This document shows, in pieces, positions 3,642-57,501 of a stretch of 64,000 bases of DNA. The DNA is from Halococcus qingdaonensis (lineage in GTDB: Archaea; Halobacteriota; Halobacteria; Halobacteriales; Halococcaceae). Both the position numbers and the translations under genes were made by a program. How positions within the stretch are numbered: position 1 is the first letter of the stretch; each line of letters begins with the position of its first letter. Location of the stretch: the NCBI RefSeq assembly GCF_024508235.1, contig NZ_CP101943.1:2639112-2703111 (forward strand), given 5' to 3'. The notes under the pieces were generated by a model. That model was not told where the DNA came from, searched no databases, and worked only from the letters and a program-made list of their open reading frames with translations.

Positions 3642-5115
<1,474 letters not shown>

Positions 5116-5257: not shown

Positions 5258-5329
5258 GGGCCCATAGCTCAGTGGGAGAGTGCCTCCTTTGCAAGGAGGA
5301 TGCCCTGGGTTCGAATCCCAGTGGGTCCA
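5258..5329 (+). tRNA. tRNA-Ala (anticodon TGC)
   Basis: The acceptor GGGCCCA pairs with TGGGTCC plus discriminator A. The D-arm is TAGCTCAGTGGGAGAGTGC, the anticodon stem-loop CCTCC-TTTGCAA-GGAGG and the T-arm GGGTTCGAATCCC. No CCA is encoded and no intron is present. It sits in the 16S-23S spacer, its usual place in haloarchaea. Confidence 0.98.
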
Positions 5330-5508: not shown

Positions 5509-5540
5509 TCAGCGGGTTCATGGATTCTGATTAGAAGACC

Positions 5541-8464
<2,924 letters not shown>

Positions 8465-8502
8465 ACATCAGTCATATCGCATTGGAATCCGTCCTGCTGG
8501 AC

Positions 8503-8607: not shown

Positions 8608-8837
8608 TTAAGGCGGCCACAGCGGCGGGGCGACTCCCGTACCCATCCCGAACACGGCAGATAAGCCCGCCAGCGTTCCAGCGAGTACTGGAGTGTGCGA
8701 ACCTCTGGGAAAACTGCCTCGCAAGAGGGGCCAAGTGTGAGCCCAGGAGCGCAATCGGTAGTACACGCAGGGTCCGTCCCGGTGGAACCCGAGACCGCTC
8801 CGTTACAACGGCTCATAACTAGTGGTTCGCCGCCTCC
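8608..8837 (+). rRNA. 5S ribosomal RNA with an internal insertion of about 105-108 nt
   Basis: The gene begins TTAAGGCGGCCAC and runs through the normal 5S body (CCCGTACCCATCCCGAACACGG, then GTACTGGAGTG) to CCTCTGGGAAA at about 8702-8712. The normal 3' end, GGTTCGCCGCC, which must pair with the 5' GGCGG, does not appear until 8824-8834, so just over 100 extra bases lie between. AACT borders the extra segment on both sides (8712-8715 and 8817-8820). The insert can fold: CCTC-GCAA-GAGG at 8717-8728 is a GNRA tetraloop hairpin, TGAGCC (8738-8743) pairs with GGCTCA (8810-8815), and GGAGCG (8746-8751) pairs with CGCTCC (8796-8801). Halococcus morrhuae 5S is known to be 231 nt with a 108-nt insertion, which fits this gene. 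Confidence 0.92.
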
Positions 8838-8849
8838 CATTCATACCTC

Positions 8850-8951: not shown

Positions 8952-9027
8952 GCCAAGGTGGCAGAGTCCGGCCTAACGCAGCGGCCTGCAGAGCCGCCCA
9001 TCGCCGGTTCAAATCCGGCCCTTGGCT
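8952..9027 (+). tRNA. tRNA-Cys (anticodon GCA)
   Basis: The acceptor GCCAAGG pairs with CCTTGGC followed by the discriminator T expected for Cys. The anticodon stem-loop is GCGGC-CTGCAGA-GCCGC and the T-arm CCGGTTCAAATCCGG. It is the last gene of the rRNA operon, as in other haloarchaea. No CCA is encoded. Confidence 0.97.
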
Positions 9028-56878: not shown

Positions 56879-57245
56879 GAGAGAGCCTGGCCACCGCGGC
56901 GTGTCGGACGACATGCACGTGCCGGTAGGCACGTGCGTGCCAGCGGGCACGCACGCGAGGAAAGTCCCCCCACCGCCGGGCAGGTGACCGGGGAAACCCC
57001 GGGACGGGAGACCGTCGGCGCTGGAACAGCAACGAGACCGCTCCCCGCGAATGATGACGTGCGCGAACCGACCCGCGAGGGAAGGGAGTTAACCCACAGA
57101 ACGCAGACCGGGGAGAACGGATGGAACGGCGAATCCTCACCGGTGCAAGTCCACGCCACGCGGATCGGCCGCACGGTAGCCCGGCAGGGGCGTGGACGCT
57201 CAGCCGAATGCCGGGACGAACAGAAGGGGGCTTACTCCTCTCAGC
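56879..57245 (+). ncRNA. rnpB: RNase P RNA (archaeal type A)
   Basis: The universal core is present. GAGGAAAGTCCCCCCACC near 56960 holds the 5' strand of P4, and ACAGAAGGGGGCTTACTC near 57220 holds the matching 3' strand. GGAACAGCAACGAGACC near 57023 and GGTGCAAGTCCACGCCACGC near 57143 are further conserved blocks. GAGAGAG at the start and CTCTC at the end can form P1, which sets the limits to within about five bases. It is the catalytic RNA that matures tRNA 5' ends. The protein-coding frames within it are chance. Confidence 0.93.
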
Positions 57246-57501
57246 CATCTTTTCGTCACGACCGATCGGTGTCGCCATTCCTCATAGAACTCACAAATAT
57301 TGCCGACTTCCACGACAGCCATGAACAGGCTGTCTCGTCCATAGCGTCCCGAAAAGCCGCGTTGGCAACGGATCGGCCGGAAACGACTCGACCTGCATAC
57401 GTGCAGTTCTCTCCGCGGACCGCACCCCCATAGGTGTGCCGCTCCTGTTTCTCTTCACGCGCGGTCGGCACGCTACCGGCCATCTTCGGAGTATTCATCG
57501 A

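Follow-up and report, generated by a model that had tools for sequence, protein, structure and literature searches.

The window, by which we mean the whole 64,000-nt stretch of Halococcus qingdaonensis DNA analysed here, carries a complete rRNA operon in the order 16S, tRNA-Ala, 23S, 5S and tRNA-Cys, and the 5S gene of this operon is of an expanded type. The features discussed below are the following:

3642-5115, + strand: 16S rRNA gene, in the same operon as the expanded 5S (Rfam)
5258-5329, + strand: tRNA-Ala(UGC) in the operon spacer (Rfam and tRNA search)
5536-8471, + strand: 23S rRNA gene of the same operon, the sole copy in the 2.70-Mb contig (Rfam)
8608-8838, + strand: 5S rRNA gene, expanded type, 231 nt (Rfam 5S match; 100% identity to Halococcus morrhuae DSM 1307)
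8684-8711, + strand: core loop E and helix IV, with AGUA at 8684-8687, a 21-nt hairpin and GAA at 8709-8711 (sequence and alignment)
8713-8716, + strand: ACUG, probably completing core helix V by pairing with CAG 8679-8681 (alignment columns 74-76 with 109-111)
8717-8824, + strand: 108-nt expansion segment, whose boundaries may slide by a few nt (123 vs 15 nt spacing; covariance model match)
8717-8728, + strand: short arm, a hairpin with a GNRA loop, here GCAA (helix 1, covariation)
8734-8820, + strand: long arm, with helices 8734-8742/8812-8820, 8746-8751/8796-8801 and 8755-8758/8789-8793 (helices 2-4)
8760-8787, + strand: distal tip, with AGUA at 8760-8763, a 21-nt hairpin at 8764-8784 and GAA at 8785-8787 (candidate bulged-G module by its sequence pattern)
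8952-9027, + strand: tRNA-Cys(GCA), 3' of the 5S gene

The window also contains an archaeal RNase P RNA gene at 56928-57246 (+ strand; Rfam RF00373, 134.9 bits).

The Rfam 5S model matches positions 8609-8727 only (68 bits, against a gathering threshold of 38 bits), and the match stops at 8727 because the end of the model falls within the insert. The true 3' end of the 5S, GGTTCGCCGCC, is found at 8824-8834, 108 nt beyond its position in normal haloarchaeal 5S genes; GTTCGCCGCC, with its last base at 8834, is the real 3' end. The distance from GGGA to TTCG is 123 nt in the window and 15 nt in normal haloarchaeal genes, and thus the insert measures exactly 108 nt. Helix I is closed around it, AGGCGGC 8611-8617 being fully complementary to GCCGCCT 8829-8835, and this pairing is conserved in the alignment. 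The preliminary description of this DNA, which had proposed a 5S gene with a folded internal insertion and a 3' end displaced by more than 100 bases, is therefore confirmed; its start of the gene stands, while the end lies at 8838 and not 8837, which gives 231 nt instead of 230.

A search of the genome, in the form of the single 2.70-Mb chromosome contig, returned one 5S match and one 23S match, with no second 5S gene; any plasmids of the strain lie outside the assembly searched and outside this count. In Marine Group IV, Actinarchaeum and the genome PW3.metabat2.160, too, a tRNA gene lies downstream of the expanded 5S; that of Marine Group IV is likewise a tRNA-Cys with a GCA anticodon.

The expansion is of the Halococcus type suspected from the letters alone: the window 5S is identical at 231/231 nt to a stretch of Halococcus morrhuae DSM 1307 contig NZ_AOMC01000054, located at the coordinates which Fig. 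2A of PMC7812874 (Stepanov and Fox 2021) gives for the type expanded 5S, the H. morrhuae molecule that the authors draw as their example. The two genes share the whole sequence, the insert and the insertion site, and they come from different genomes of one genus (23S identity 99.1% over the 2180 nt compared). According to the passage of PMC7812874 that recounts the direct sequencing of 1981 by Luehrsen et al., the 5S pool of H. morrhuae consists of the long molecule only. In a 6.4 Å cryo-EM map of the H. morrhuae ribosome the 5S carries additional density attributable to the insert, so that the long form is present in the 50S subunit, although the insert is largely blurred; a faint density toward helix 38 was reported and could be noise (PMC7530397). 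The window gene itself is already known: it is the long-described "double-length" 5S rRNA of Halococcus. What is new is that two lineages sister to the haloarchaea also have the insert, whose stems covary strongly and whose sarcin-ricin-like tip hardly varies.

We consider it highly probable that this is a functional Halococcus 5S gene, that its RNA retains the 108-nt expansion where helix V meets helix I, on the large subunit's central protuberance, and that the expansion has two arms, a short hairpin with a GNRA loop and a long covarying rod ending in a conserved, hairpin-capped module of the bulged-G type. For the H. morrhuae RNA of identical sequence, others have demonstrated that the expansion is retained in the mature 5S at this position; the same would hold for the window gene.

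The architecture is that of the halobacterial expansion segments of PMC7812874, an asymmetric V made up of a short hairpin and a long arm, in which the distal stem-loop is the most conserved part and was put forward as a candidate functional domain. As expected for such segments, the insert sits in the 3' half of the 5S, between loop E and the triple junction. The thermoanaerobacterial and other bacterial 5S expansions also place a helical insert in the 5S core; they occupy different sites (the helix III bulge and loop C), and PMC7812874 calls them unrelated structural types.

The structure of the insert was assessed on an alignment of 33 distinct expanded genes, collected by an order-wide scan, a covariance model of the insert and follow-up scans; the covariance model matches the window at 8707-8829 with 133.3 bits (E 1e-27). 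The fold comprises 29 pairs in five helices, and 98.4% of its cells are paired across the 33 sequences, compared with 81.2% in shuffled alignments. Two-sided changes occur in 20 of the 29 pairs and in 178 cells (shuffled mean 50), a level of covariation reached by none of 500 shuffles, and sliding the partners by a single column reduces pairing to about half. Helix 1 is paired in 100% of cells, with two-sided changes in 2/4 pairs and a GNRA loop (GCAA, GAAA or GAGA) in 31 of the 33 sequences, and helices 2-4 show two-sided changes in 16/18 pairs.

The stems named in the preliminary description are all present in the window (CCTC/GAGG with its GCAA loop at 8717-8728, TGAGCC/GGCTCA at 8738-8743/8810-8815 and GGAGCG/CGCTCC at 8746-8751/8796-8801) and correspond to helices 1 to 3 of the covarying fold. 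Its view of a structured rod rather than random sequence, and its suggestion to look for covariance across species, are thus both borne out. Covariation is decisive here. The folding energy of the single sequence is not significant (z = -1.43, with 13/200 shuffles as good) and alone would not have shown the fold; a search of Rfam with the insert alone gave no match, even at E 10.

At the 5' border, the column pair 76-109 changes from G-C to U-A in Ordosarchaeia and from G-C to A-U in one further sequence (L006), in separate lineages. These two-sided changes indicate that ACUG probably completes helix V, with the insert lying 3' of it. When helix V is built with the strand before the insert, 73.5% of cells are paired; 4 of 500 shuffles attain the covariation score, and the remaining measures are at chance. 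The candidate in which the strand after the insert completes helix V gives 69.7% pairing without two-sided changes, and was set aside on what is a modest preference for the strand before. The insert therefore probably starts after ACUG, with modest support, a few nucleotides from the published position; PMC7812874 places the insertion at 104.1-105, whereas we put it after the CUG that completes helix V.

The distal tip is nearly invariant, while the helices just below it covary freely. Across the 33 sequences its AGUA (within columns 160-187) is conserved in 33, 33, 32 and 32 sequences for A, G, U and A respectively, and the opposite strand has G in 33/33, A in 31/33 and A in 28/33. The combination of AGUA with a facing GAA, enclosed by Watson-Crick pairs, characterises the bulged-G motif (also called loop E or sarcin-ricin), and such modules commonly dock a protein or an rRNA site. 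The tip fits the pattern AGUA opposite GA(A/C) with Watson-Crick flanks (column pairs 164-184 and 158-189), L024 being an exception, and the tip of the insert thus reads as a bulged-G module, here capping an extra arm and recognised from its sequence pattern and flanking pairs. Weighing against this reading are its basis in a sequence pattern and the existence of that one member with AGCC in place of AGUA. The main texts of PMC7812874 and PMC7530397 make no mention of a sarcin-type or bulged-G motif in the insert. In the same RNA, loop E of the core also consists of AGUA, a 21-nt hairpin and GAA; this equal spacing could reflect duplication or convergence.

Two members depart from the common tip. 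L024, from genome G186 of genus g64, has a divergent insert, in which the tip reads AGCC and hairpin 1 is closed by a UCAC loop; the other two species of the genus have a normal 5S, and the insert is possibly decaying. L036, from genome G356 of the Halomarina group, has a tip one base shorter, with GAC/GUC for CAC/GUG and GAC for GAA; in the alignment these changes look like compensatory drift of an otherwise invariant tip.

The insert was previously taken as a haloarchaeal trait of four genera (Halococcus, Halalkalicoccus, Halomarina and Halodesulfurarchaeum; PMC7812874), spread by horizontal transfer. We find a wider family. The exact tip pattern occurs in 20 stretches of the GTDB r220 contigs, which include the four published genera and also Halocatena, Actinarchaeum (both chromosomes), YIM A00010, YIM A00013, several MAGs, 'Euryarchaeota archaeon Ods02' and the Marine Group IV genome HikBin5; all of these matches lie on haloarchaeal, Marine Group IV or Ordosarchaeia contigs. 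The paper that describes Ca. Ordosarchaeia, in which Ods02 appears by name, places this lineage between Methanonatronarchaeia and the branch of Halobacteria and Hikarchaeia (PMC10873845), the latter being Marine Group IV. In HikBin5 the insert and the downstream tRNA-Cys are preserved and the 5' half of the 5S is lost at the contig end; PW3.metabat2.160, with the same family code, has a complete expanded 5S, and the expanded form also occurs in three genomes of the Ods02 family.

In a class sample, 33 of 392 genomes match the insert. No match fell outside the haloarchaeal order in a phylum sample of 393 genomes, nor among 36 non-haloarchaeal Halobacteriota genomes scored closely, a set which possibly does not include Methanonatronarchaeia, and phages and viral contigs gave none. 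Our literature search found no paper joining Halocatena with the 5S insert.

Two assemblies deserve a separate remark. The Halodesulfurarchaeum MAG G184 carries a normal 5S on contig C149 (L048/L105) and an expanded 5S on contig C262 (L169); we rejected it as a Halodesulfurarchaeum with a normal 5S, since the 'normal' contig looks mis-binned, grouping with another family by its 23S, and the expanded 5S lies elsewhere. L004, on an H. thailandensis contig (G061), consists of apparently tandem, N-joined partial 5S copies and is probably an assembly artefact.

Presence and absence of the insert were then mapped on a 23S tree of 61 rows. The label needs about seven changes, or eight if only gains and 11 if only losses are allowed. 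Equal-cost parsimony on the best tree favours an expanded ancestor (7 vs 8 changes), and of 200 bootstrap trees 62 give an expanded ingroup ancestor, 59 a normal one and 79 a tie. The distance between inserts follows the 23S distance, as vertical descent predicts (Spearman 0.65; Mantel p between groups 0.015, or 0.03-0.05 with groups dropped). The inserts of Halococcus and Halalkalicoccus are much more similar than the 23S distance of the two would lead one to expect (ratio 0.24, where about 1 is usual), although the 23S rejects a sister relationship of the two (p-AU 0.014), and lateral exchange between them is therefore likely on these sequence comparisons. Halodesulfurarchaeum, with an insert/23S ratio of about 0.6, may be a second case of exchange. 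For Marine Group IV and Ordosarchaeia, the divergence from every other insert amounts to about 34-48% of sites, and no recent transfer is thus visible there.

Since the insert is found in two sister lineages of the haloarchaea as well, it is probably much older than Halococcus. We lean towards an insert that dates back to about the ancestor shared by Ordosarchaeia, Hikarchaeia and Halobacteria and was inherited mostly vertically, with several losses and occasional exchange. This old origin is favoured by several observations taken together: the tracking of 23S distance, the Halococcus-Halalkalicoccus exception, the rRNA operons found on plasmids and second chromosomes, which are a ready vehicle for exchange, and the mixture within genus g64, where G186 is expanded, G249 and G312 are normal, and the 23S tree groups all three. 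Against it stand the split of parsimony over the bootstrap trees, the normal-length 5S of L106 (G011, family f11), which is the sister of Ordosarchaeia in the 23S tree and the key taxon for gain versus loss, and the similarity of the Halococcus and Halalkalicoccus inserts, which requires exchange.

The main alternative extends the view of Stepanov and Fox: the insert would have arisen once within Halobacteria and then spread by horizontal transfer of the 5S or of whole operons, from genus to genus and also into Marine Group IV and Ordosarchaeia. The patchy distribution, which takes eight changes if all are gains and 11 if all are losses, speaks for it, as do the mixed genus g64, the Halococcus-Halalkalicoccus pair and the plasmid and second-chromosome operons. 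We regard it as rather unlikely, given that insert distance scales with 23S distance save in Halococcus-Halalkalicoccus and partly in Halodesulfurarchaeum, and given how far the Marine Group IV and Ordosarchaeia inserts have diverged.

If the origin is old, a fuller scenario may be proposed, though tentatively and with somewhat less than even confidence: the insert would be an old ribosome domain dating from before the split of Ordosarchaeia, Hikarchaeia and Halobacteria, in the transition from methanogens to halophiles, kept for a sarcin-ricin-like tip that docks a putative partner, and lost in most haloarchaeal families by recombination with normal 5S genes. Its occurrence in Marine Group IV and Ordosarchaeia makes the insert a possible marker of that transition, and weakens its supposed tie to extreme salt.

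The strength of constraint on the insert can be judged from two H. dombrowskii megaplasmids (L170, NZ_CP095007.1; L171, NZ_CP095009.1), which carry the identical expanded 5S (231/231 nt). Compared with these two plasmid operons, the window operon has spacers of 86-90% identity and 23S genes of 98.7-98.9%, while its 5S with the insert is 100% identical. Selection is a simpler account of this than gene conversion confined to the 5S. With the long molecule as the sole 5S of H. morrhuae, where the sequence is the same, and with both H. dombrowskii copies expanded, the second, normal-length 5S gene raised in the preliminary description as a possible source for the ribosome is not seen in the chromosome contig searched. 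Both megaplasmid operons are complete, and nucS and a TATA-binding protein gene lie downstream of each.

Rates of change on the 23S tree give a similar picture. The tip has 0.86 changes per column, near the 0.67 of the 5S core and below the 23S average of 1.18, and it is slower than the proximal arm (2.59; p = 1e-4). These values bear on the idea of a harmless passenger, structured without function and tolerated as it points into solvent, which we judge improbable, somewhat more so than spread by transfer. Such a passenger would agree with the patchy presence and apparent losses of the insert, with its flexibility in the cryo-EM map (PMC7530397) and with the lack of any known phenotype; it does not agree with the slow tip, with compensatory changes in 20 of 29 pairs, or with 108 nt exactly conserved between operons whose spacers differ by 10-14%. 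Selection against misfolding could account for the stems, not for the invariant AGUA/GAA internal loop.

In a functional expansion, the rod would hold the tip close to the central protuberance; this tip may be the working part, docking a putative protein or rRNA site by analogy with other bulged-G modules. We rate this proposal as evenly balanced. Against it, the blurring of the insert in the cryo-EM map (PMC7530397) gives no indication of a fixed contact. Conservation of the tip almost at the level of the 5S core makes the 40-year question of what the insert is for directly testable.

Removal of the insert from the RNA as an intron or intervening sequence, an idea prompted by the precise normal 5S sequence on both sides of it, is very improbable given the identical H. 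morrhuae RNA, which the same passage of PMC7812874 describes as a 231-nt molecule and the only 5S in the cells, the density at the insert site (PMC7530397), the slow evolution of the tip and the complete identity of the insert between operons with diverged spacers.

Equally improbable is a mobile element inserted with a 4-bp target duplication, for which the AACT copies at 8712-8715 and 8817-8820 of the window, noted in the preliminary description as a hint of how the insert arose, would be the evidence. The same 4-mer stands at both borders of the insert in 16 of the 33 sequences only, and this agreement is absent from the deepest lineages, with no case among the sequences of Ordosarchaeia, Marine Group IV and f1g2; a target-site duplication was rejected for want of a conserved direct repeat. 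Matches confined to haloarchaeal, Marine Group IV and Ordosarchaeia contigs, with none in phages, also argue against such an element. The repeat is therefore uninformative on origin, as its two copies belong to different helices: the first ACU probably completes core helix V, and the second forms a covarying helix strand of the insert.
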